Source of the DNA: Nymphaea colorata
Lineage: Eukaryota > Streptophyta > Magnoliopsida > Nymphaeales > Nymphaeaceae
Reading direction: 5' to 3'
Assembly (NCBI RefSeq): GCF_008831285.2
Contig: NC_045142.1
Coordinates: forward strand, 1,803,001 to 1,867,000
DNA length: 64,000 nucleotides
Positions 4,505 through 51,560 of this stretch are shown here, in pieces; position 1 is the stretch's first letter; every line of letters begins with the position of its first letter. The notes below the pieces were generated by a model. It was given only the letters and a program-made list of their open reading frames with translations. It was not told the origin of the DNA and ran no database searches. The position numbers and the translations under genes are program-made.

Positions 4505-6166
4505 TCAACGCTCGAGAACCACGTTAAGATCTTCACTAGCAGACCGGCGATTTTCATAATGGCAGATGAAACTGAGCCCTACCAAGAGCTCCGCCATAGC
4601 CTCCTCCGTCTTCTCCCTATCGGCGAAGTAGAGAGTTTGCATAAGCAGAACGTTGGTCCTGGAGATAAACTGCTGCTGCTCGAAATTCCGCTCGGATTGC
4701 CAGCGGACCATGTCGTGAGCTAGCGGCGACAGCCACTCCAAGATGTTTTCAAGCTTTTCTCTGCAGCAATCGGCAGCCTGATCGTCGCAGTCGGCGGATT
4801 CTTTTTTCATTCCGCGCTGCCTGTGCTTCGTCTTGATTTTCGCTCGCAGGCTTGTGGGTAGCAACTGATAGAGATCGCACCTGGCATCTTCGCCGACCAT
4901 ATGAGGAAATTGAATCAACCTCTGTACAAGAAGTATGACGTTGGCGTAGCGCAAAGCCAGAGCGGAACCACCAACGGTCGATGGAGAAGCGTTCAATAAT
5001 CGGTTCTTCTGCCCCGGCACCCATCCTTGACCCTCCAAGAAGTGAAAATTTTGGGTTTCCGATCCATCTTCTGGACCAAAATCGTGAATTTTAGACGATC
5101 GAACGCTCTGTTTGTGCTTGACATCTGAGGAGCGGAACAAGCTGTCCGAGTAAAATGCCGTCAAATCCCCGCTCTTTACGGCAAGGCCTGATCCGATGCT
5201 CTGAAAAAGCGGCCCAGACCTAGTGACACCAGCACTCTTTGCCGTTGAGGTCCTCTCCAAGGGGCCGGAAAAGTTTCCCCTCGGTCTAGCTTCTGGGAAA
5301 CGGAAAGCACAATCCGACGCGCGGGGAAAGACTATGGAACGAGACCCCGAATTTCGACCGCTCCCACCGGAAGCCACAGGCATGATCACGATGGCGCTCA
5401 CCTTGGGTAATCCGGGAACGTGAGGGCCGAAGATGAAGCAGATCCTGGCGTAGATCGTGCAGACCATCCTAGCCATTAGCCCGACGGCCATATCAAAGGT
5501 CTGGTTCCAAAGAGATACCTGACGAAGATGCCGGACCCGCTGCTTCTGCCACGCGAACTTCTGCCTGAAAAGCTCGACGTTTGCCTTCGGCCCGCCGAGC
5601 GCCCGCCATTGCTGCATCCTCTTGTCCGACGCCTCCATATCCTTCAGCGTCTCGAGCTCCACGAAGAGATCGGCGGTGAGCGAGACGTAAGTCTCCATGG
5701 ACCTCACCCTCTCGTCGACCTCCACCGCCGGGAACCCCAATTCCCCGATCCCCGTGCCGTCGCGCGCCAAATCGGCGTATATGTGCACGAACCCCCTCAG
5801 GCTCGGCTCCGCGCACCGCTGCCCCAGCCTCGCGACGGCGTCGGCTATCCGGCCGAGGTCCTCGAGCTTCTCGGCGCAGGCGAGGCCGAGAAGGAACCCC
5901 TCGTCGCGGGAGATGAGCGACGCGACGCCCTCCGACTCCATCGTCTCCGATCGGAGCCGCGACATCTCGTCGTCGCCGAGGGAGCGGTGGAGGTAAACGA
6001 TCCTGGACATGATCTTGGCGACCTCAAGGGATAGTATTCCTATCTGCCCGGGCGGCCGCTCGGGCTCCGTAAGGCGGCCCTTCTTCTGGCTCTGTTTCTG
6101 GTTCTTCTTCCGCCCCTCCAAAACCTGGCTGCGCAGGCGCGCCAACCAGGATTTGACGGTGAACAT
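4505..6166 (-). CDS. DUF3475/DUF668 protein, PSK SIMULATOR-related
   Basis: A single uninterrupted 553-codon frame, so the gene appears intronless. Residues about 42-98 (starting IGILSLEVAKIMSRIVYLHR) form the DUF3475 block, and about 397-490 (starting ALALRYANVILLVQRLIQFP and including DLYQLLPTSLRAKIK) form DUF668; the conserved tail includes RWQSERNFEQQQ and TLYFADREKTE. This order and length fit the plant family that contains the PSI proteins and the Arabidopsis At3g23160/At5g04550 group. PSI proteins are linked to phytosulfokine-related growth control, but the biochemical role is unknown. The start MFTVKSWLARLRSQ resembles the basic N-terminus of this subgroup; it lacks the MG myristoylation start of PSI1-type members. 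The linker, about residues 255-395, is serine/glycine-rich and poorly conserved. The 5' half is GC-rich compared with its surroundings. Confidence 0.88.
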   Translation of the reverse strand: MFTVKSWLARLRSQVLEGRKKNQKQSQKKGRLTEPERPPGQIGILSLEVAKIMSRIVYLHRSLGDDEMSRLRSETMESEGVASLISRDEGFLLGLACAEKLEDLGRIADAVARLGQRCAEPSLRGFVHIYADLARDGTGIGELGFPAVEVDERVRSMETYVSLTADLFVELETLKDMEASDKRMQQWRALGGPKANVELFRQKFAWQKQRVRHLRQVSLWNQTFDMAVGLMARMVCTIYARICFIFGPHVPGLPKVSAIVIMPVASGGSGRNSGSRSIVFPRASDCAFRFPEARPRGNFSGPLERTSTAKSAGVTRSGPLFQSIGSGLAVKSGDLTAFYSDSLFRSSDVKHKQSVRSSKIHDFGPEDGSETQNFHFLEGQGWVPGQKNRLLNASPSTVGGSALALRYANVILLVQRLIQFPHMVGEDARCDLYQLLPTSLRAKIKTKHRQRGMKKESADCDDQAADCCREKLENILEWLSPLAHDMVRWQSERNFEQQQFISRTNVLLMQTLYFADREKTEEAMAELLVGLSFICHYENRRSASEDLNVVLER

Positions 6167-7025
6167 TGTTCCCCGCCGGCAACCTCACGGTTTCCGGCGC
6201 ATCTCCGGCGGAAGGAGAGGAGATAGAGGAGCGACCGGTGGGCTGTTGGTGGTCAGGGCGGCCTTAAAGGAAAGAGCTCAAGAGGCGGAGACGCGGTGCG
6301 GACCTCGGACAGTTGGATTACAGCGATGGAGGGGAGAAGCCAGCCTTTCATTTGGGGGCCCCGCCTTTCCCGCCAACTGGGACGCACTGAGACGCAAGGG
6401 AAGGGAAGGAGCTTCCGATTTTTGTTCTTTTTCCCCAAATTCTGTTTCAGGACCTTATTTCCTCTATTATCATTTAAAGCGCCTTATTTTTTTCGAATTC
6501 ATCGATTTGACTGCTCTAAAGTCTAAACCTTTTTGTTTTTCCTCTCAAGGGTCCATAAATAGAAAATAATTGTTGTGTTTTTCCTTTTTACCTTGCCATG
6601 TGTTGGCCAATTGACTGCCACACGATAAAGAAAGAATGTTTTTATGTCCTTGAGTGTTTGATTTTATGAATACCAATTACTTTTTAAGAACCCAAATTTG
6701 TGACTTTTAATTTCGCTCAAAATATTACATATTTGTTCCAAACTTTTAATTTACAAACACTTGTGAGTGTTTGATTGTTTCAGCTTTTACATTTTGAGAT
6801 TCTGAGTTAACTTAAGTCAACTTCTATTTTATGGTTCTAACAAACTATAGATTTCAAAATGGTGTTCTTAAGATCTTGTTCATGTTTTAGCTCTTAAGTT
6901 GGAAAAAAAAAAGGGCGAGGTTTGATTTGAGATCCATCTAGGTAGGTTATTTGTAATGTCATTTCATCATAGTCGGTTGAATGTGAAAAACAGCTAATTG
7001 CATTTAAGTAAGTTTTGCTACATAC
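6167..7025. other. Upstream region of the PSI-like gene
   Basis: About 300 bp next to the start codon are GC-rich and would hold the 5' UTR and core promoter of the minus-strand gene; no clear TATA box is seen. Frames on the plus strand here are shadows of GC-rich sequence. From about 6590 rightwards the DNA is AT-rich without recognisable features. Confidence 0.4.
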
Positions 7026-22215: not shown

Positions 22216-23273
22216 ATCTCATCCCAACATGTTGGAACAGCTTTGTTTTGTAGCAACCTAGTCAGACAGCGGTGGTCGTTATGGAGAATGTAAGTGTTCT
22301 TTCTTTAAGCCATTATTATGATGTATTCTGTGTTTACTTTTGACAGTAAAAGTTTATCCCCCCTGATTTCCTGAACAATTGAATCATGTAACCATTCCAA
22401 AAATTGTTCTGCTGGCCGTGAGAATTCAACCTTGCCTCTGATGGCCATGACCTTACTTACACTACTATGCCAACTTTTTAAAGTGTAATTCGATATCGAT
22501 TTTCTTTCTGCTTTTTTTTTGCTCTGATTCCTTTCTGCCATTATCCTGGCAGTTCTATTCGGAAGTTTCTGCCATCTTAATTGACAACAAAAATTGAATA
22601 TTTGGTCATGGGCTCCAGTGAGATCTTGTTCGTCAACTTTTCCCAGCAATGACATGAAAGAGGAGAAAAAAGAATGGCTTATTCAAGTGCATATTGTTGG
22701 AGATTAAAACTTGACAACTTGGTCTATATCAAGCAAAAAACATGACAGACCTGATTAAAAGGAACCTGGAGATTGCTCTGCTACCATTTATGCGCATGGG
22801 CATGCCTCTTTGTGTACGACATGTTTCATGGTAAGAGTAGGATACAAGTGAGTGCCTACAGAAGACTCGAACTAGGGATTTCTTTTTAGATCGTCTCCAT
22901 GTATATTTACGGGCATGCGGAAGTTTCACATTGATCCTGAGATGCGTATTTGCACATTTTCTCAGTAAAAGTCGGTGGCAGGTTACCAATAGCCGGAGTT
23001 CTTCCCAAGCATGTCTTACCTGCCTAGTTAAAGTTGCCCATGCAAATTGTGGGTCTAACTTCTCGAACACAGAGTCACTGCTAAACTCACCAAACTGAAT
23101 TCTCCTAAGTCTGAAATCTGGGTCCAAATAGACCCTAGCCACCAAAAAAAATTCGGCTGCTGCTCTTCTTGAACTGCAGCAGAATCCAATATTTTGCTAA
23201 ACAGTATGCACGACCAATTCAAACATATCTTCTTTCTATGGAATCTAGATTTTAGCACAAATTCCATCCATTT
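22216..23273. other. 3' UTR and gene-free region after the SRRM1-like gene
   Basis: The first few hundred bases should be 3' UTR. No canonical AATAAA stands out. Short frames on the minus strand are unsupported. Confidence 0.4.
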
Positions 23274-23390
23274 GGATATCTGAGATTGAACAAAAACCCA
23301 AAAATTTGAGATGGATATCTGAGATTGAACAAAAACCCAAAAATTTGAGATGGATATCTGAGATTGAACAAAAACCCAAAAATTTGAGAC
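23274..23390. repeat. 39-bp tandem repeat, three copies
   Basis: The unit begins GGATATCTGAGATTGAAC and continues through AAAAATTTGAGAT. Three copies occur in register, identical apart from the last base of the third. The unit length is a multiple of three, so one minus-strand frame shows a repeated peptide, but nothing else suggests it is translated. Confidence 0.95.
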
Positions 23391-24143: not shown

Positions 24144-24441
24144 CGTTGGAAAATTAAGAAGAAAAGAAAACTGAGATTTAACGTGGTTCGGCCACTGGCC
24201 TACGTCCACGAGAGAAAGAACTCTCACTCATGATCTTATTTCTTCCATCAAATACACAGGGCACATATAAAGCTACAAGGCAAGGCTTCATCGTGAAGCT
24301 AAACAACTAATTTCAAAAACAGATTGGATTACTCATCCAAAACCGGGCAAAAAAGAAGAAGGAAGGAAATCTAGATAAGGCAAGATCAACTTCAACAATA
24401 ATTTTGGTGGACGTTGGTGAAGATATCCTTCCCTTTCAACA
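24144..24441 (-). repeat. 3' LTR of the copia element
   Basis: Aligns along its full length with 28287-28591. It lacks a 7-nt segment present in the other copy near its right end. Its first plus-strand base is C where the partner has T. Confidence 0.9.
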
Positions 24442-25470
24442 CTCACCCTCAAGTGGGGCGTAAAGTTTCCAAGAGCCCCACTTGACTTTGATTTCATTAA
24501 ACATATATCTTTCTTTTGCACTTTTTCCCTTACATAATGGCAGTCGATTTCCAAATGCTTCGTTCGTTCATGAAATACCGAAATTGCAGTAATGTGGATA
24601 GCAGCCTGATTGACACAAAGCATAGGAATAGGGTAATCAACCTTGAATCCAAGCTTTTGAATGAAATTCTTTATCCAAGTGAGCTCGCTAGCAGCATTGG
24701 CCATAGACATGTATTCAACTTCTGCGCTTGACCTTGGAACAATGTTTTGTTTCTTACTTTTCCATGAAACTAAATTGCCTCCAAGAAATAAACAATAGCC
24801 TGTGATGGATTTTCTATCCAATCCTCCTGCCCAGTCTACGTCAGAATAACCTTTGATGTCAATGTTTTCATTAATTTTATACCTCAATCTTTGACCGGCC
24901 GTTTTCTTTAGATATCTCAAAACTCGATCCACCATTTTAACGTGTCTGGGTTTTGGAGCATGCATGTGTTGACTGATCAAACTTACAGCAAAAGTAATGT
25001 CGGGTCTAGTCACTGTAAGATAAATAAGTTTTTCGACCAATCTTTGATACCTACTTATATCTTCAATGACTTCGCTCTCAGGATCCTCTAGCTTACAGTA
25101 AAGATCAATAGGAATGTCAATAGGCTCAGACTCGAGTTTTCCCATCTCCTTGAGCAGATCGATGATATACTTGCGTTGAGACAGGTAAATACCTTTCTTT
25201 GATCTAGAGATTTCTATGCCCAAGAAGTATTTAAGTTTTCCCAAATCTTTGATCTCAAAGGCTTTGTGGAGAAATTTTTTCGTCTTGAGCATGATATCTA
25301 GGTCGTTTCAAGTGATGATGATGTCATAAACATATATAAGAACAATTACCACATTTTCTCCAGTTCTCCTGATGAAAATAGAATTGTCTGTATGGCTGCG
25401 GGAAAAATGTTTCATTTTAGCTACTGGTGCGAAAGTTTTCTCATAGTCTAGCCCTTGAGTCTGTGTGTAT
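24333..25470 (-). pseudogene. Copia reverse transcriptase C-part and RNase H
   Basis: Reading on the minus strand, ARLVAKGYTQTQGLDYEKTF appears near 25490-25430, but the frame then jumps to the DNSIFIRR region: the RT centre, with the usual VKNAFLHG and ALYGLKQ motifs, is missing. The polymerase motif usually written YVDD reads YVYD near 25330. A continuous frame, 25292-24333, then carries DLGKLKYFLGIEI, the SRYQRLVEKLIYLTVTRPDI region and RNase H (GYSDVDWAGG, SSAEVEY). It runs on into the left LTR. Confidence 0.85.
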
Positions 25471-28597: not shown

Positions 28598-28936
28598 AAT
28601 TATCAGTTTCACAAAGGCTTCCTCTATGTTAATTTCTGATTTTACATGCAGAAACTGCAACTATAAAAAAATTGAACAAAAATCTTGCCACCGTCAAAAG
28701 ATATCATGGCACCCTAGAAGATAATATTGATACTGCAGGTTGGAGAAGGTTTGTATCTGAACAGGCCTTGTTGCTGTCTTGATCCAAGCTCATCAATAGT
28801 TTCATGTTTCTTCTTTATTTTTTTCTTCCCGGGTGAGCAGGGAGTTCTGTGCAAGCCCCCTCTATCTCCCTCGGCCCTGGGGTTTAGAGCTTGCTTTGAA
28901 ACCAATATGGTTAAGGAGAATGGTTCCCTAAGCGAG
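28598..28936 (+). other. Right flank of the copia element with a possible orphan exon
   Basis: Just right of the insertion, TTTTACATGCAG at about 28640-28651 resembles a splice acceptor and is followed by about 44 open codons (28652 to about 28782), including TIKKLNKNLATVKRYHG and ending in a stop. I do not recognise it and see no partner exon. It may be a remnant of a gene into which the element inserted. Confidence 0.25.
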
Positions 28937-29098
28937 GTGACCGCCACGAAAGTCTACACAGCGACCACCTTTTATGTGCATTGCATGCCCAACTCAGTTG
29001 CGCTACACCAAAGCGATGTGACCGCCATGGAAGTCTACACAGCTACCCCCTTTTATGTGCATTGCATGCCCAACTCAGTTGCGCTACACTATCGGGGT
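28937..29098 (+). repeat. 81-bp imperfect tandem duplication
   Basis: Two units start at 28937 and 29018 with GTGACCGCCA. Each contains AAGTCTACACAGC and TTTTATGTGCATTGCATGCC. The period of 81 is a multiple of three, and the plus-strand frame 28727-29263 reads through both as a repeated 27-residue peptide. No known domain. Confidence 0.85.
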
Positions 29099-30126
29099 TG
29101 TGTTCCTTCTTATCGTGCAACCAACAAATGTTTTTTTTTTTTGGGCCAAGGTTGGATGACATCCTTGTCCTGGCTGGAAACAGTCGAAATTTATACAAGA
29201 TGTGATCCATTTGCAACCCTAATTGGAAACGTTCGAACACCAATGGTACCCTGGCTTAAATAAAATTGCCTTGTGCGACTGCTAATAGCAACGAGTTGGT
29301 GCTGGAGATTTTTATTAAGTCAGATTGTCTTTCTGATCTCAGTGGAAATGTCAATGAGTTGGATTTAGATTGACTATCTAGCCAAACTATTTCAAAAAAG
29401 TTGAATATGCAAAAAATCTCAGCATCCAAATTAGAAAAACGGATCCGATTCAGATGTGAATCTAAAAAGTTGGGTTTGGGTTGTAATTTAAAAATCAGAT
29501 AAGGATATAATATAGACATGCGTTCAATTATGAATTCTAATCCAAATATATTAACATCCAATAAATCATATATGGTATGACGTACATTTGACTTGAATCC
29601 TAGCTTTTGACAACCTTGTATCTCATGAATTTGGTTACTATACAGCATGCAGTTTCATCACCAACTTCGAATTGTGCTTAATATTTAACTTAGATTTAAC
29701 AAAATCAACCGCGTTTATATATAGATATTACTTCTCTTGCCAGTTTGATTAATATTCCGTTTCAAAAGATAGAATCGAATTTGAGCTCCGACGCAAAATT
29801 TTGTTCTGTGGAATATGATTGTGGAATTCCACGAAGACTGGATCCTAGCTCAAGCTCGAACCAGTGACTTTCCTACAGCACTAATGGATTTTGTGGCGAA
29901 TCTACAATTCCGTGGTGGAACGAACGTCTGGTCTCTGCTTCACCTCGAGTGGATAGAGAAGAAACGACGTGGCACCGCTTCATAGGCCACTATACTCTCC
30001 TACTCATCTGATCCTCCATGCTGGCACAGTTCATGGCAGCGGAATCTAAAGCCCGGACTCAGAAGAAGAAAGGAAAGAAGAAAGGAAAGCACTGGGAAGA
30101 CAAAGGAGGAGGAAGCCGTTCCGTTC
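29099..30126. other. Gene-free region upstream of PTAC16
   Basis: Segment 29345-29570 shows MITE-like ends (AATGTCAATGAGTTGGATT and, in reverse, GATGTTAATATATTTGGATT) of the TAGRGATGTYAAT family. The final 200 bp should hold the PTAC16 promoter and 5' UTR; an AG-rich run AGAAGAAGAAAGG lies just before the start codon. No TATA box is evident. Confidence 0.4.
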
Positions 30127-32843
30127 ATGGCTCACTCTCTTGGCTCCAACTCCTTTCTTCTTAATCCCTCTCATCGTTCATCCCTCCCGTCAAAAAATCA
30201 CAGAAGGAGTTCCTTTATTTCCGCGGCGGCGCCAAAGAGGGGCATCTCCTTCCCTCCCTTTAGAGTCGGGAAGCAAGGCGACGGCGAGCCTGGGGAGGGA
30301 AGCAAGCAAGAGGCGCCGGAGAAAGGCAGAAAGAATCCGTTCAATTTCGGAAACGTGAATGTGCCTGATGTTCAGGCATTGATCCCCATCAGCCAGGCTT
30401 CAGCCTTGACGCGTCGAAAGGACAGCCAAACTGTTTTTGTTGCTGGTGCAACTGGCCAGGCCGGTGTGAGGATCACACAAACACTTCTCCGGCAGGGATA
30501 CAAGGTCCGGGCCGGCGTTCAGGACCTTGGGTTCGCGCAAGAGCTTGCTCGCATTGCTGCTAATTATAAGGTAGAGTTCTCATCTTCTTCATGACATTGA
30601 AGCTCTGTCTCTTTCCAATCAAATCAATGGCTGATCTTAGTGAGGCTCTCCTTCATCTATATCTTTCGGAATGGAAAAGGCATGACACATTGATGTTCTT
30701 GATATAAGAGTAGATTTAATGGTACCATTTTTTTTCTTTCTACTGCAATTCGTTTATCTCTGCGATTAGGATGGCTACCATTGACAATTTACAACGGTGG
30801 AGACAGTCCGAACCCTGCCAGATTATTCAGGAAACGAACTCCAGGCATCGAGCTCTTGACCTCCGATTGTCACATTTTAGGCTAACCATCTAGCTAGGTG
30901 TAAAGAGTTCTTGTTGGGATCAATTTCTAGTCCCATATCTGCAGATTTCTTCACATAGATGACTGGACCCACATGGGCTGCAAATTGCATTATTCTCTCA
31001 ATGAAATGTGAAATTGGAGGCTAAGCTGAGGCTTAAGTCATCAGCGGTTGCCTTCCAAACCTTTTTTAATCATTGTTCAGTAGGATTGCCTGTGGTTAGA
31101 CCAAGCTTAGTTCCACCATGTAATATCATGCAAAACTGTGTTTCCTTTATCCAATTTCTTTCAAAAGAATGAATGAATTTGGTAAATTAGATCTGGGAAC
31201 GGTGATAAGCAATATTAGCGGATTAGGAATGGCCTAGTCTTTGGATTCCAATCTAGCAGATATCAAGCACTCCCATTTGTTCAGTTCCAATTTTTCTGAT
31301 TCACCCTGCAATGACAGGCGATCAAACAATAGTTCACTGTAACCTGCTGTAATCCACCTTAATTTGATCGGAATGGCATAATTTCTAATCAGGCGTGACT
31401 TATGTCTTGTTGAATAACTGCATGGGAAACCATAGTCGTTTTTCGCTGTTTTCGCTGGTACCAGAATTGGAAAATGAAATCTTCACTTGATATTTTAAGG
31501 TACCGATAACAAAGAAAGCTCATACATTCTAAAAAAAAACCTATAGCTACATTTGTAGTGGAGCAGAGTATTTTTGCAATTCTTTTTGAGGAAAAGGCAA
31601 CGTGTCACCATGATATCATATTTTCATGTAAAATGAATCAGACAAGGAATTTCAGCAATTCTCAGTCTGGGTCTAAGCATGCCACTCTTATTTCATCTGT
31701 TCGAAAGGGTTGCCACCATACAAGTTGGAAAAGCCTGATGCATATTCTCGGATTACCAAAATACTTTTTGGGCCCGCCATTTTCTGATACTGGATCAATT
31801 CTTCTGACACAAACTTCTGATCCAGATAATTTCCAATGAGGAACTGAAGCGACTGAATGCTGTGGAATCTGCATTTGAGAGTCCAGAATCAATTGCAAAG
31901 GCAATTGGTAATGCCGCAAAGGCTGTTGTCACTGTAGGTCCTGGCGAGAATGGTCCGAGCACTGCGGTAACTGCATTGGATGCTCTGAAGGTGGTCCAGG
32001 GAGCTGAGCTTGCTGGTGTCCAGCATGTTGTGCTGATCTATGAAGTAGCTGTAACTCCAGTCTCCACCTACAACGTGCTAGATGGTCTCTCATCCTTCTT
32101 CTCGAACATTTTCTCCTTCAACCAAGAGCTATCCTTGCCAGAATTGCTGGCAAAAGTGGCTGAAACTGAAATTGGTTACACACTGATTAAGGCCAACCTT
32201 GCCGATGATTACTCACCAGAGAGCAGCTACAATGTTGTCATTAGACCGGAAGGGAGTGCAGCTCAAGATGACTACAAAGTAATATAGTGGGTGCAATTTT
32301 TTTTCAGGTTTAGTTCGTCTTTGTTTTCTGAAGACTTGCTTTCCAAGTGGCCTGAAATTTTGAATTCGAAATATTTGACCTTTGTGTTTTGAATGGTGCA
32401 GGTGTCAAAATCGCAGGTTGCTACCCTGGTGGCAGATGTTTTCTCAAACATAGCAATTGCAGAAAACAAGGTCAGTGAGGGCTGGATCTATGACTGAATA
32501 ACAGACCTATTCTGGATCTAGGTGCCGACTATGGACCCAACAGATCCACCAATGTTACAAAAAACTCAGGACCCACTTATGTTTTGGTCCACGATTTAAC
32601 ACCTTCATCCTCATGTTCAGGTTGTTGAAGTTGGTACAAGTCCATCGGCTCCAGCAAGATCAACTGATGAACTATTCAGGTAATGTCACTAACTTTTACT
32701 AATCCTACTGGGGCATGAATGAATTGAGTAAAACGAAATGGATCATCTCGATGCAAGTGAAATGTAATAGTTCACGGAACAAGGCCCAACACTTTGACTT
32801 AGACCTGGATAGCTTTCAGACCCAATGAACTGTTCGTCAGAAG

Positions 32844-32926
<83 letters not shown>

Positions 32927-33687
32927 TTTTCTCTGTTTGTCTGTGTGGAGAAGTACAAATCATCTGAGATGCAAAATGAGTTTCAGTATTAAGGAGCAGC
33001 TTTTTGAATAGGCATTTCACAAGGTTTTAGTAATTTTGAAATAGTCACATTGTTTTAGACTTCCAAAGTAAGCGTCTGGGAGTACTCCCTTACAGAAAGC
33101 ATCAGAAATTGGCTATCCGTGGGTGAGCTGTGAAAATGACATCTCAGTTGTGGAAATGCAGCACGATTCCAGAAGATGGAAGAAGGAAGGCCTACGCTGA
33201 AGCTGTGGCAAGAGCTAAAGCAGAGGAAGAAGCACTAGAAGCATCAAGGAAGGCACAAGAAGCAGCAGAGGCTGCAAGGAAGCTGGAAGAGGAAGTAAAG
33301 AAGCTCTCCAAACAGGAGGTAATAGCTGCCACCTTAGCAGAAGAAGCCCAAGAGAAGGCCCAAGCAGTTGGGTCTAACATTGACAAATTACTTAGTAGAG
33401 CAAAATCTGCGGGACAGGACTTCTCCTGGGAGAAATTATCATCTCAGTTTGCAGATTCCATCAAACTGAAACCAAATGAGATTCCAAAAGTTCAGTTGGC
33501 AACAATTCGTGGACAAGCAAAAGCTCAGACTTTGCCTCCAAAGAAGGCGATTGTAAAGCCACCAAAGCAGGCAAAACAACCCCAACCACCTCAGCCGAAA
33601 TTGAAACCCAATGAAAAAAAATCTGAAGTTAGGAATGTGTTTGGTGGCCTATTCAAGCAAGAGACAATCTACATTGATGATGATTGA
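30127..33687 (+). CDS. PTAC16: Plastid transcriptionally active 16 (PTAC16)
   Basis: A chloroplast protein found with the plastid transcriptionally active chromosome and thylakoid membranes; it has an atypical NAD(P)-binding fold and its exact role is unsettled. Exons 30127-30570, 31826-32278, 32402-32470, 32621-32679 and 33162-33687 join to 516 residues, close to the Arabidopsis protein (about 510). Residues 1 to about 45 are Ser/Arg-rich and look like a chloroplast transit peptide. The Rossmann motif GATGQAG lies at 107-113 within TVFVAGATGQAGVRITQTLL. The middle part keeps family words (AESIAKAIGN-like, STYNVLDG, YTLIKANL). From about 345 to 400 it is an A/E/K-rich coiled coil, and the C-terminus GGLFKQETIYIDDD is the family hallmark. 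Intron 1 (1.25 kb) and intron 4, with a 77-bp TA microsatellite, are the largest. Confidence 0.93.
32848..32924. repeat. (TA)n microsatellite in PTAC16 intron 4
   Basis: About 38 TA units without interruption, in the intron between exons 32621-32679 and 33162-33687. Confidence 0.95.
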
Positions 33688-34759: not shown

Positions 34760-37700
34760 TTATATTTCATAGAGGATTCCAACTTGCAGTAGCTTCTCCG
34801 GATGAATTCCTAGCATAGAAACTGTGGATCTGAAGTTCTTCTGCAGAAAACGGTAGACATAATTGATGATAATGCGATCGATGCACCCATTTTGCTTGCT
34901 TGACCTCAGGATTGTTCTTCCCATGACAAAAACTACATCATGAACTTTGGCAGACTCAAGTTTGGTAAGTTCATCATTACTGTCAATCTGTTCCTTGATT
35001 TTCTCCATGACTGAAGCTATGAATTTGTCATCTTCCATTCCAGGAACATCGGTGTATCCATACTGCACCAAGCATCTGTACATTCCATCAGGTCCCAGTT
35101 TTCCAACAAAATATCGTTCATCTGGAAGAACAGTTCGAATGGGCAGAGTTCTGATGGTAATTATCACTGTGATTCTGCGCAGAGCACCAACATTTTTGAC
35201 ATAATGCCTGACAATTGGTGGGATGCCATTGACAAGGTCTGTGAAGAATAAACAAACCCCAGGAACATAACAGGCTTGTACTTCAGAGATTAGCTGGCTG
35301 AGATCAGCTGGAGTCATCTTCCTTTTTGATTCATACTCATGCTTTTTGCTTCTTCCATACGTCCATGACAGCATGATTATGAGGAAGAACACAGAGATTG
35401 CAAATGGAACCCAACCACCTTGAGGAACTTTGTTGAGTAAAGATGTCATGTATGTTCCCTCTAGGGAGAAGAACACCATGAAGAAGACTGCAACAAGGAA
35501 GGCATTTGTGTGCCATATGGTAAGCATAACTACAGTCATTAAACAAGTTGTTATGAGCATCACCCATACAACGGCTACACCTGCAATGATAGGAACAATA
35601 GATTCTGTATTATCAAGGGGGATTCAAATACTTGTCAGTGTTATCTTGCAGCAATCGCCAGTAGGGTTAGCTCTCGGTTGATATTCTTACAATATTACAG
35701 TAGTAGTTATAAAGGCATGAAAGCCAGCATTAATCTATGTCTTTACATTTGACCAAGAGGAACAGGTTAGGCTGGTTTACCATATGCATTCCCAATCTCA
35801 GGACCGCCTTTGAAACCAGCAACAATGAGAATGCATGCCACCATGAGAAAATAGTTTACTTCTGGGGAATACACCTGGCCTTCATGGCTTTTTGAGGTGT
35901 GCAGCATTGTGACCCGGGGAAAGCAACCTAATGCCATTGACTGTCTTGTGATGGAGAAACTTGCAGAGATTAGTGACTGACTTGCAACAATGGCAGCCAG
36001 TGTGGCAATAACAAACATTGGCCAAAACACTGGATCAGGGATGGAGCTGTAAAACGAACTTCTTAGACTTTCTGGATGTTTTACCAAATATGCAGCCTGC
36101 CCTCCATATGTCAGTATTAGTGCAGGATATATGAAGGCTGAGAATGCAATCTGCAATTATTCAACAATGTCAAAAGCAGGACAACAAAGACATGCAAGAC
36201 ATGATTTTCCTCAAAAAATGAGAAAAAGCCATGCAAGCATATGATCGTTGCAGAAATAGTAGCTTCCGGCATGACCCTTCAGGATTGATGAAAGTTATGT
36301 CTTCATATTTTTATGGCTTTTGATGGTTAAGAAATTAAGGTTGATAGAGACCTAAACAGACTAGTTGGCTCTTACAGGCAACAATGGCCATCTCATTTGC
36401 ATGTAGCCCAAAATTAGCATTTGTGTTTCATTTCAAGTTTCAGGAAGACAGGCAAAGAGGAAACTGATGAAGCCATGGATTTAAACCTGAATGGATTTCT
36501 TGGTGAAGTGTCCCAGATCAGCAAACATGGCTTCTCCACCTGCAATGGAACAGGAAAAGCTGGTTTCACTATAGTAGGAGCAAATCCTGATTCTTCTTAA
36601 AGAAGAGTCTCTAGAAGATTATCACTAACTTCTCAGGACAAATAATGTTTAGCGGAATGGTATATAATATAAATTGGTCAAGCTAGATCCCAAAAGTGTA
36701 AACTGAGAGTATGAAGAAAAGTCAAGGTTCAATCAAGTAAAAAAGCTAAGAATCATGTTTTAATAGCGTGACTGGAACTTTCTCAGGGTCCTTGGACAGT
36801 AATTATGTTTAAGAGAGCTATTTCCTCATTCTATATCAGCATGAAAAGAATTGAGAGTTGGTAATAAATGAGCATACCTGTCATGCACAAAAAAACTGCT
36901 CCAAGAACTTCCCATCCATGCTTATGATTTCTGTCAAAGAAAACAAAAATATAGTGCGGGGAGAGTGCCTTGAAAATCGCAGGATAGAATTTGATGATGT
37001 TATAGACACCAATTGATGACGTGCATCCAAACCACAGAATCATGATCGGAGAGAAAGCAAAGCCAACTCTACTGCTGCCATAGCTTTGGAAAAGAAAAAG
37101 TACCAATAGAATTGCAATTGATATCAGAACCACATCCACTGCACCAAAACCAAAGGAAATTCCATTTAAGAAAGAAAGAAAACATAGAATGGGTAAATAT
37201 TAAAAGCTAAAACCGTGAAAGATTTTACTCACTTTGGTCAATCTTTGAGGATCTCTTCTGGATACCTTGGACAGCAGATAACACTGGATGGAGTAAAAAA
37301 ACAAAAGAATCATATTGGACAGCAGATATGCACGGGAATGTGCACAAAGATCCTGGTCTTGAATGCCAAGTCTACTAGAGAGCCATCAACCATGGATTAT
37401 AGTGACCCTTTTATGGACTTAATTCACCTCAGGTTGGAGTTGTTGGTTGTCTTGGCCATTTGTTTCCCTATCATCCAGTATTTCCTCATTACTCCTTAAA
37501 TTAATAATAAAAAACATGGAGTTGGAAGTTTGACAGGTCATTCAACTAAAACTTGCTTCAAGCAGAAACCCAATATACTTTAATAAAGGCTTGAAAGTTA
37601 AACTTGCATTAAGGGACGCTAGCTAGGATATCAGTGCCAATTGCCGAAGCTCAGGAAGAAAGCATGTCACGCTTCTGACCTCCACATTTATGTTAGTTGC

Positions 37701-48387: not shown

Positions 48388-49109
48388 GTATCATTTTCCT
48401 CATCCTCCTTGAGCTTCTCTTTTCTTCCGATTTCCTCCTGCCTCGCGTCTCCACTTGTACACAAATCCGGGAACTGGAATAAGTTTACAGTACAAATGGT
48501 TAATCTGCATCATAAGATGAGCTACCAGGAATGATAATGATGGAAATAATGATATCGAGAGTGATGGTGATAAAACCAATTGTATAAATTGCATTTCCCC
48601 ATCAGTTGTTCTCATCATCAAGTTCTCATCATCAAGTTCTCATCATCAAAAAAACAACAGTGAGAAGAAGTACTGCCAGACAATTTGATGGTGGTCATCA
48701 AAATGTAGCAATAACAGCAAGCAGCAGCAAAGAAAGAAGAAGAAGCGAATATTCATTGCTCTTCTTATTGCATCCATGTTTCTGAGAGAAGCCCAACTAA
48801 AATTATCCAGTACATCCGTCACTGCGACTAAGCTTCATAGCCTCTCGCTCTCTCTCTTTCTCTCTATTATGAAGAAATGAGCTAACAAAATTCAAATTGT
48901 TAAATCTATTTCAGGGAAAGAAAACGAACAATTAGAGAACGCGAGATAAGGACCATCGTTTGATCTGTGTACACATACATTTGATTAATGAAACTATCAC
49001 TCACAGAAGCAAAACACACGCGCACACCCTTAGAGAAATGAAGAAGAAGACTACCACTCCTGAAGGACTAACAAAAATACCTAAAGAGAGAGAAAAGAAA
49101 AGGGAAAAA
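47213..49109. other. Gene-free region downstream of the AHL gene
   Basis: Contains ATCC/GTCC-type short repeats at about 48140-48195, a CT tract at about 48339-48387 and another CT tract near 48843-48867. The right end would include the AHL 3' UTR. No other gene is seen. Confidence 0.4.
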
Positions 49110-50375
49110 TCAATATGGTGGTGGACGTGGAGCAGCCCAGCCGTAGACGTCGTGGGGCATCTGCCCGTTGGGCAGCAAATTGGGCGGCAGATTGTAGATG
49201 GGCAGCGAAGTAGGGTCGGGCAGGCCGTGTTGCTGCTGCCCGCCGCTTGTTGCCAAGCCACCACCACCATTACTACCACCGTTTGCTCCGCCGCTCTGAG
49301 AATTGTTCACTCCTCCGCCGCCGGAGGACGATTGCTGCTGCTGCATTGCGAGGTTCTCGGCCTCCTCGTCTAGTGGCAATCTCTCATAGGTAGCGTTGCT
49401 GAAGGTCGCGGCAATCACCATGACCGGGCCGGAGGCGATGAGGGCGCCAACGACGCTGCCGCCCACGACCTGGCCCTGGCCGCCTGCGAGGTAGATCGTG
49501 AGGCCGGTAGCGCCGGGTGGAGAAGGAGCGGGGAGGAAGGCACCAGAGAGGGAGAGGATCTCGAAGCGGCCGGGGAGGGTGACGACAGCGCCGGGGGCTG
49601 CCGGCTGGCGAAGAGTGACGTTGGCGACGACGCCGCTGCCGCTGAGGAGACAGACCCCTCGCTGGCGGCGCCGGGCAAAGTTGGCGACGCTCTCCACGAC
49701 GTCGCTGCCGCTTGCGATCTCGAGGATGTGGCTCCGGAGGGCGTTGGGGCTCTCGCGTGTGATTATGATCGGCGGCTTTGGCTTGTTCTTCGAGCCCGGG
49801 GGCCGGCCGCGGGGACGTCGGCCCCCGGCCTCGACGATCTCGGTGCCGGTAGCGTGTTCGTCGTGCTCGTGGTCCCCTTCGCCAGCGCGGCCTTCGTTGT
49901 CCTCATCATCGTGCCCGGCGCCGTTGTTGACCGCGGCGCTGCCTGAGGGGTCATGCTCGCGCTTCGCCGGAGCTCCGAGCCGTCCAAGACCCGCCGGCTC
50001 TTCTTCTGAGTTGTGGAGGTGGAGGCTCGGTGGGGCGAGCGCCGGTGCCGACACCGGATCCACTCCCCCGAGCCCCACGCTCCCTCCCCACCACCTGTTC
50101 GCCAGCTCTTCCTTTGTCCTCACCCCTTTTTTTCTTCCTTCCCTTCTTCTGCTTTGCTCTCTTATTCCTTTTTTTCTTCCACTTATTCCTTTCAGCTGCT
50201 TCTTCTTCTTCTTCTTCTTCTTCTTCTTCTTCTTCTTCTTCTTCTGCTGCTGCTTCTTTCCTTCTTCCCTTTTTCTTCTCCTTCTTGCTGTTCCTTCTTC
50301 TTCTTCTTTGGCTGGCGCTGTTGCTTCGTATGCTACTTGTACTTTTCTGTTGGCTCTTCTGTGTAAAGAGAACAA
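49110..50375 (-). CDS. AHL transcription factor (AT-hook + PPC), AHL19/20 type
   Basis: A nuclear AT-hook motif protein that binds AT-rich DNA and acts in complexes of PPC-domain proteins. The frame from the first ATG has 421 codons and no intron. The type-I AT-hook [16 protein letters not shown] is at about 187-202; the PPC/DUF296 domain runs from about 209 to 335, with the conserved GRFEIL at 269-274 and [13 protein letters not shown] near its end. A Q/G/N-rich tail ends [11 protein letters not shown]. Family members of this type begin MANxWW; here codons 92-96 are ANRWW but codon 91, expected to be Met, is CTG (50105-50103). Translation may therefore start at CTG, giving 331 residues close to family length, or at the upstream ATG, adding 90 residues rich in lysine encoded by a (TTC)n microsatellite. 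The gene body is GC-rich. Confidence 0.88.
50103..50105 (-). promoter_or_regulatory. Candidate CTG start codon of the AHL gene
   Basis: The codon precedes GCGAACAGGTGGTGG, encoding ANRWW, the family's residues 2-6. Context on the minus strand is GAAGAGCTGGCG: G at -3 and G at +4, the strong Kozak arrangement needed for efficient non-AUG initiation. A splice acceptor that could supply an ATG is unlikely because the sequence just upstream is purine-rich. Confidence 0.45.
50203..50243. repeat. (TTC)n microsatellite at the AHL 5' end
   Basis: About 14 TTC units on the plus strand (GAA/AAG/AGA on the coding strand). Read in the AHL frame they give an uninterrupted run of lysine between codons 45 and about 60. 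Confidence 0.95.
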
Positions 50376-51560
50376 CCTGAAGAAGATCTCGAAAAGGAAG
50401 GAGGGCCCGAGCTGGGGAGTCGAGAATCTTTCTCTCTCTAGTTCAACACAGCACCGGAATGAATCGAACTCAGCTGTGGTGAATCACCGTCGTGTTGAGG
50501 CTCTTTTTGCAGCAAATGAGTGGGCTTCCCTTGTGGCCTAAACAAAGAGAGAGATTGTTATTCTTCCCTTTCTTCTTCTCTTCTCTCTGTTAATGTACGA
50601 AGAAAAAGGCGGAAGATGGGGATGGAGATATGGAAGGAACATAAAGAGCAAGATTCAAGACAATGATGTTTATCAGGAAAAAGAAGAGAGAGTACAAGTA
50701 TTGATACTTGGTCTAGCAACCCAAAAAGAAAATCTAAAACTTCGACAAGAGTATGGCGAGAGAGTCCTTGTTCTCCCACAAGATATTGTCATAAAAAAGG
50801 AAAAAACAAATGGGGACAAAGAGAGTCATATAGGTGTAGAGAGAGAGAGAGAGAGGGACTGTACCCTAAACAAGTTGCACCACTTATATATCTAGGGAAG
50901 AAAAAACAGAACCCTAATAAATTCCAACAACAAACCAAAGGAAAAAAAAAAAAAGACAAACAGAAGAATTTAAACTTTAAACACCTTTCCACATCCCGGT
51001 CACTCTCTCTAAAACCCTTTTAAGAACAGCAGAAATTTTTATATGCATATATATATATATATATATATTACTTGATTAGAGAGAGAAAGAGCAGATGGGG
51101 AGAGAGAGAAAGAAGATGTATGAATATAGGGGAGATTTTCTTTGTACGAAATTCATAAATTTAATACATTCACCTGAAACCCAAAACGCCCCACAAAAAT
51201 TTCATTAAAAAAAGCAATAAAAATTTAAAGAAGAGGGGAAAAGGTGAAGAGGTGGGCAGGGAGGGGGTACAACCTACAGACTACAAAAGGCGATCTTCTT
51301 CGGGAAATCTCTCAGAGAGTTCCCTCTTTCCCTCTCTCTTCCTCGAAAGAAAGAGGAAGCGTGTGGGTGTTGTACTATCTTCTCAGAAAGCCAGAGATAG
51401 AAGAGAGAAAAAAAAAAAAAGAACAAGGAAAGAGAAGAGGCAGACCGTTAAAACTATGCAGAAAACCGATACCAACTATCATAACACAACTATAAATGCC
51501 TCATGAGAGGGAGAGAGAGAGAGGGGAACAATGTTTCTAGAGAGAGAACGTGGTGGTATT
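50376..51560 (-). promoter_or_regulatory. AHL upstream region with TATA box and GAGA tracts
   Basis: On the minus strand TATATAAG lies at 50890-50883, about 510 bp before the first in-frame ATG and 780 bp before the CTG. A transcription start near 50855 would give a long leader with upstream ATGs, one opening a 73-codon frame (50779-50558). GA/CT tracts occur at about 50839-50854, 51076-51115 and 51509-51524; GA repeats are known targets of plant BBR/BPC factors. Functional use is inferred. Confidence 0.45.

Follow-up and report, generated by a model that had tools for sequence, protein, structure and literature searches.

The transcription factor AGAMOUS of Arabidopsis belongs to the MADS-box family. 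It is cited as being translated exclusively from a non-AUG codon (ACG), and a hairpin is predicted downstream of this codon at nt 30 (-19.9 kcal/mol; PMC2001202). RpoTp of Nicotiana combines a CUG start with a predicted downstream hairpin, which in tobacco NsRpoT-C is located at nt 22 (-12.7; PMC2001202). RpoTp of Nuphar advena, a plastid RNA polymerase, is described as having no AUG near its start and its first in-frame AUG far downstream, with the CUG yielding the full functional protein. This start was backed by GFP fusions, and changing the CUG to CAC abolished chloroplast import of the fusion (PMC3022604). Few plant nuclear genes translated only from non-AUG codons are known, and they have been called rare (PMC3022604). 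In vitro, a hairpin placed 17 nt into the coding part, and to a lesser extent one at 11 nt, was reported to raise recognition of a weak AUG, and hairpins at 5 and 35 nt did not. The same source reports that a hairpin can also raise non-AUG translation, gives nt 12–18 as the critical zone, and describes the mechanism as not fully verified in vivo (PMC2001202).

We analysed a 64-kb stretch of DNA, hereafter the window, and found a complete clade-A AHL gene on its minus strand at 50105–49110, with 331 codons counted from a CTG and then a TGA. The parts of the gene are as follows.

49110–50105, minus strand: AHL coding sequence running from the CTG through the TGA, a continuous open reading frame that requires no intron (PF03479, 83.3 bits).
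49398–49736, minus strand: match to the PPC (PCC/DUF296) domain, containing GRFEIL and with LRSH at its beginning.
49782–49817, minus strand: Type-I AT-hook, an RGR core followed by GSKNK, at codon 97 counted from the CTG.
50103–50105, minus strand: CTG at the place of the AtAHL20 start codon, context GAG-CTG-G, located from the sequence and the AtAHL20 primer.

The PPC match to Pfam PF03479 had a cut-off of 25 bits and covered residues 214–326 of the 421-residue translation of the frame. Clade-A/Type-I AHLs are reported to be marked by an AT-hook with an RGR core and GSKNK, and by a PPC domain that opens with LRSH and includes GRFEIL (PMC4209074). All of these marks were found here together, and with LRSH at codon 123 and GRFEIL at codon 179 from the CTG the domain is a Type-A PPC. 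Third-position G+C was mostly 0.60–0.93 per 15-codon block from the CTG onward, with one block of 0.40 that corresponds to the serine/glycine-rich tail of the protein. A PDB search by sequence gave no match at 0.01, Rfam gave none at gathering scores, and the tRNA search gave none. Pattern searches for relatives returned 101 matches in microbial contigs and 26 in viral contigs, with none confirmed in either. On the 3' side of the AHL stop codon, a 14-bp unit is present in three identical copies (48608–48649).

Elsewhere in the window, the minus strand contained an intronless ORF of 559 codons with DUF3475 and DUF668 (4505–6184), an arrangement we take to be that of plant PSI-type proteins. An open stretch at 34760–35623 (minus strand) gave matches (K_trans, K_trans_C) to the final part of a K+ potassium transporter and is probably its last exon. 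Three open stretches on the plus strand (29986–33687) included two with weak, sub-cut-off Pfam matches to NmrA or NAD(P)-binding families and one without a family; they may together be exons of a single gene for a chloroplast protein. A reverse transcriptase match (RVT_2, 36.4 bits) at 24333–25307 on the minus strand probably represents what is left of a Ty1/copia element. Repeats included two copies of an 81-bp unit (27 codons), with 93% matches, inside an open frame of the plus strand (28930–29089), and three copies of a 39-bp unit, with 100% matches (23273–23389).

The AHL shares the domain order of Arabidopsis and Camelina AHL20, and a MANxWW start is also found in other AHL19/20-type proteins. 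Here codons 2–6 from the CTG read ANRWW, and codon 1 is CTG in place of the methionine codon. The cloning primer for AtAHL20 (At4g14465), ATGGCAAACCCTTGGTGGAC, contains ATG-GCA-AAC-CCT-TGG-TGG, which we translated as MANPWW, and the primer for Camelina CsAHL20, ATGTCAAACCCTTGGTGGACG, contains ATG TCA AAC CCT TGG TGG, which we translated as MSNPWWT (PMC7731500). Because these primer starts align with ANRWW, the CTG occupies the ATG position of AHL20; M(A/S)NPWW in the two described proteins stands against (L)ANRWW here, and both of those genes start with ATG whereas ours has CTG at that place. AtAHL20 also has an AT-hook, and its C-terminal end, ARPPY-stop in our reading of the primer, resembles the PRPPPY-stop of the present ORF (PMC7731500). 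By its motifs, we read the gene as a clade-A transcription factor gene of the AHL20-like kind, with CTG where the ATG start would be. The protein would begin MANRWW if the CUG were read by initiator Met.

An earlier note on this DNA had placed ANRWW at codons 92–96 of the AHL frame, directly after a CTG at 50105–50103 with G at both -3 and +4. We found the residues, in the frame read from 50375, the codon, and both flanking bases, at 50108 and 50102 respectively, as described. The plant start consensus is reported as a purine at -3 and G at +4 (PMC11062462), and the near-cognate codon here, GAG-CTG-GCG, has both. Of the 17 CTG, GTG, ACG, and TTG codons in all frames between 50640 and 50100, this combination was present at two, the AHL CTG and an out-of-frame ACG at 50490 that opens a 6-codon ORF, so that the AHL CTG is the sole CTG of the region with both bases.

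Initiation at another non-AUG codon, or at several, would give a longer protein from CTG 50195, GTG 50123, or TTG 50375, or a slightly shorter one from GTG 50078 or 50063. We regard this as highly improbable. These codons are all in frame and uninterrupted, and the two downstream GTG codons also have a purine at -3 and G at +4 and would keep the AT-hook and PPC domain; however, they would lose ANRWW and sit within the hairpin predicted below. Each of the three upstream codons lacks at least one of the two context bases, and the extension that they would add is largely repeat-derived.

Of the ATG codons around the CTG, none gives the full AHL protein on the genomic sequence without splicing.

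49419–49421, minus strand: first in-frame ATG after the CTG, at codon 229, inside the PPC domain (by frame reading).
49763–49954, minus strand: 63-aa ORF in another frame and without evident meaning, opened by the nearest ATG downstream of the CTG when all frames are considered (by frame reading).
50538–50642, minus strand: 34-aa uORF opened by the last ATG upstream of the CTG (50642), in the register of the CTG and closed by a stop.

A start at ATG 49421 would give 103 residues without the AT-hook. The earlier note had the upstream frame reach an ATG about 90 codons before the CTG; that ATG is absent, and at 50375 there is a TTG codon. Upstream of the CTG, 126 codons are open, as far as a TGA at 50486, and not one of them is ATG. 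In first-order Markov sequences of the same composition, the frame was open over 126 codons in 58 of 3000 and over 82 codons in 371 of 3000, and it lacked an in-frame ATG in 1871/3000 (126 codons) and 2046/3000 (82 codons). Neither the openness of the upstream frame nor the missing ATG is therefore evidence when taken alone. The mRNA would include the 34-aa uORF only with a transcription start upstream of 50642. Between 50642 and the CTG there is no ATG in 534 nt, which was also the case for 169 of 2000 Markov sequences and is mild evidence only. With no suitable in-frame ATG, a protein with both AT-hook and PPC domain requires a non-AUG start, unless a leader is spliced on or a base is wrong.

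A wrong base would mean that the true letter is A and the start an ordinary ATG. We consider such an error unlikely. CTG is one base from ATG, and 94 nt upstream of it lies the end of a low-complexity GAA repeat, yet errors near microsatellites are mostly indels and not substitutions. The window has no N, and the unbroken 559-codon DUF668 ORF, together with the unbroken AHL ORF, speaks mildly against a base error. The same sequence is predicted by a recent start-loss allele, null or weak, in a gene on its way to becoming a pseudogene, since here too CTG differs from ATG by one base. Such an allele fits the missing ATG, and AHLs form a large family with overlapping members in which a single loss may be tolerated. 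The 331 codons are nevertheless intact, with AT-hook, PPC domain, and C-terminal tail, and CTG in its present context would be among the least damaging single changes. We therefore give the start-loss allele little credence as well. RNA editing was rejected as a source of ATG: a C-to-U change would give UUG and not AUG.

The region immediately upstream of the CTG is rich in purines.

50104–50310, minus strand: purine-rich leader of 207 nt, 91% purine, including a GAA/AAG run at 50199–50245.

This agrees with the purine-rich microsatellite that had been noted there earlier, and the frame is open in this region because the sequence is T-poor. Third-position G+C upstream of the CTG was erratic (0.13–1.00 per 15 codons), in contrast to the values downstream, so the lysine-rich stretch looks like a leader and not like protein. 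In a 475-nt fold, pairing probability averaged 0.31 over the 100 nt before the CTG. Many plant leaders contain GA-rich repeats. The leader is nearly all purine and lies 3' of a possible uORF, as in R-motif mRNAs such as TBF1, whose purine-rich leaders are bound by PABP, and the likeness is one of composition only. R-motif mRNAs are reported to undergo PABP-driven translation via these leaders (PMC9998923, PMC11062462).

A basic N-terminal extension translated from an upstream ATG, as proposed in the earlier note, fails on the unspliced genomic sequence, which has no such ATG. It survives only as a spliced-leader model or as a weaker upstream non-AUG start. In the spliced form, an upstream exon would supply the ATG and a lysine/arginine-rich extension of about 90 or more residues would precede ANRWW.

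51174–51205, minus strand: hypothetical leader exon of this rival model, from ATG to donor; splicing to an acceptor at 50376 would give a 101-codon extension.

Ten in-frame chains of ATG, donor, and acceptor were found under lax rules (donor score of 6 or more; ATG within 600 nt; acceptor tract with a pyrimidine content of 60% or more, which 4 of the 72 AG sites reach). In the example listed, the ATG is at 51205, the donor CAG|GTGAAT at 51173, and the acceptor TTCTTCAG at 50376. In-frame chains can, however, come about by chance before a stop-poor purine tract, a simple scan found one donor scoring 8 or more in 52000–50376, and Pfam placed the PPC domain as the sole match in the 421-residue frame, with none in the extension. 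Introns were reported in all 21 Liriodendron LcAHLs (PMC10056439), which favors a spliced leader, whereas Type-I/clade-A AHLs were reported to be intron-free (PMC4209074), also in walnut (PMC10138636), which does not. The present ORF is continuous from CTG to stop, and a leader intron is compatible with the genomic sequence. Taking both sides together, we judge a spliced leader to be improbable. Rejected too was a leader with an ATG directly before ANRWW, the arrangement that the earlier note had named as able to overturn its claim. The last AG ends at 50106 after a tract with 12% pyrimidine, and splicing cannot set an ATG in place of the CTG because there is no AG between the CTG and GCG-AAC; such a splice is unlikely, and the CTG would stay in the transcript.

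Behind the CTG, folding predicted a strong secondary structure.

50007–50090, minus strand: predicted RNA hairpin, coding nt 16–99, 33 bp, -53.6 kcal/mol when folded alone.

For nt 1–100, 1/200 dinucleotide shuffles was as stable (z -3.3). Shuffles of synonymous codons, which preserve the protein and the codon use, were as stable in 0/400 cases for nt 16–99 and in 1/400 for nt 1–100. Because the boundaries of the hairpin had been picked after the fold was seen, we also used a test across the whole CDS, in which the best 84-nt window anywhere (304 windows) reached the observed value in 2/200 synonymous shuffles; the 84-nt length is still derived from the fold. The hairpin was the strongest of 3044 84-nt windows sampled in 42-nt steps along the two strands of the 64-kb window. 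Other segments gave other values: 52/400 synonymous shuffles were as stable for nt 1–150 and 112/400 for nt 16–75, and for nt 1–60, where the 3' arm of the hairpin lies beyond the segment, 400/400 folded at least as well (z +3.2). A stepped scan gave z -2.1 (nt 13–96) and -2.4 (nt 25–108) in the start region, -3.1 at nt 397, and -3.6 at nt 865, and a 250-nt fold across the CTG gave z -1.7 (11/200). The CDS-wide minimum started at nt 4–34 in 51/200 shuffles. The predicted strength is thus unusual (about 1%) and the place is not, and the two together are suggestive but not compelling. A G-quadruplex pattern is present at nt 17–41, but the duplex hairpin won for nt 1–100 when ViennaRNA was run with quadruplexes allowed; for nt 1–60 alone, the quadruplex won over the duplex.

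The predicted hairpin starts at nt 16, which is inside the reported 12–18 zone. It is much stronger than those predicted for tobacco RpoTp and AGAMOUS. It begins at nt 16 instead of the 22 of tobacco, and the AGAMOUS hairpin lies farther from its start codon, at nt 30, with ACG there and CUG here. In the 475-nt fold the CTG itself was paired (coding nt 1–5, probability about 1.0), and this predicted pairing could hinder initiation. The hairpin may equally predate the start change and have been present in an ATG ancestor.

Among the starts that the earlier note had set side by side, the CTG emerged as the best-supported, through its frame, its context, the hairpin, and the AtAHL20 start position. 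We hold with moderate confidence that the full AHL protein is made by CUG initiation at 50105, and we infer the following course. The 40S subunit would scan the purine-rich leader, for which little pairing is predicted and whose last 534 nt contain no ATG, and would reach the sole leader CUG with a purine at -3 and G at +4. The stable hairpin from coding nt 16 would block the leading edge of the 40S subunit, which may pause with its P site close to the CUG, and initiator tRNA would supply Met there as the first residue. Since a Met that precedes Ala is normally cleaved off, the mature protein would then start ANRWW, the same as from an ATG-starting gene. The hairpin may also hinder scanning beyond the CUG and so guard against the out-of-frame ATG at 49954.

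CUG initiation would make the AHL gene a new case of a known kind, the CUG-initiated plant nuclear gene, for which Nuphar and tobacco RpoTp are the precedents, and we consider this probable. A search of open-licence literature, with partial coverage of AHL papers, found no report of a non-AUG start in the AHL family. Compared with RpoTp, where the Nuphar CUG serves a plastid transit peptide, the product here is a putative nuclear DNA-binding protein. ATG-demanding gene predictors would probably drop the AHL gene or trim it to the 103-residue ORF that lacks the AT-hook. If the CUG start is used, output is likely to be lower and could be tuned via start-codon stringency. More speculatively, and with doubt on our part, a transcription factor made solely from a CUG, with a dedicated hairpin brake at nt 16 and a PABP-type purine leader, might be a growth and flowering regulator whose dose is set by start-codon stringency together with stress-dependent initiation. 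If CUG initiation is true, this developmental regulator, whose sequence also shows a candidate for a start helper, would be a natural test of how plant ribosomes accept CUG.
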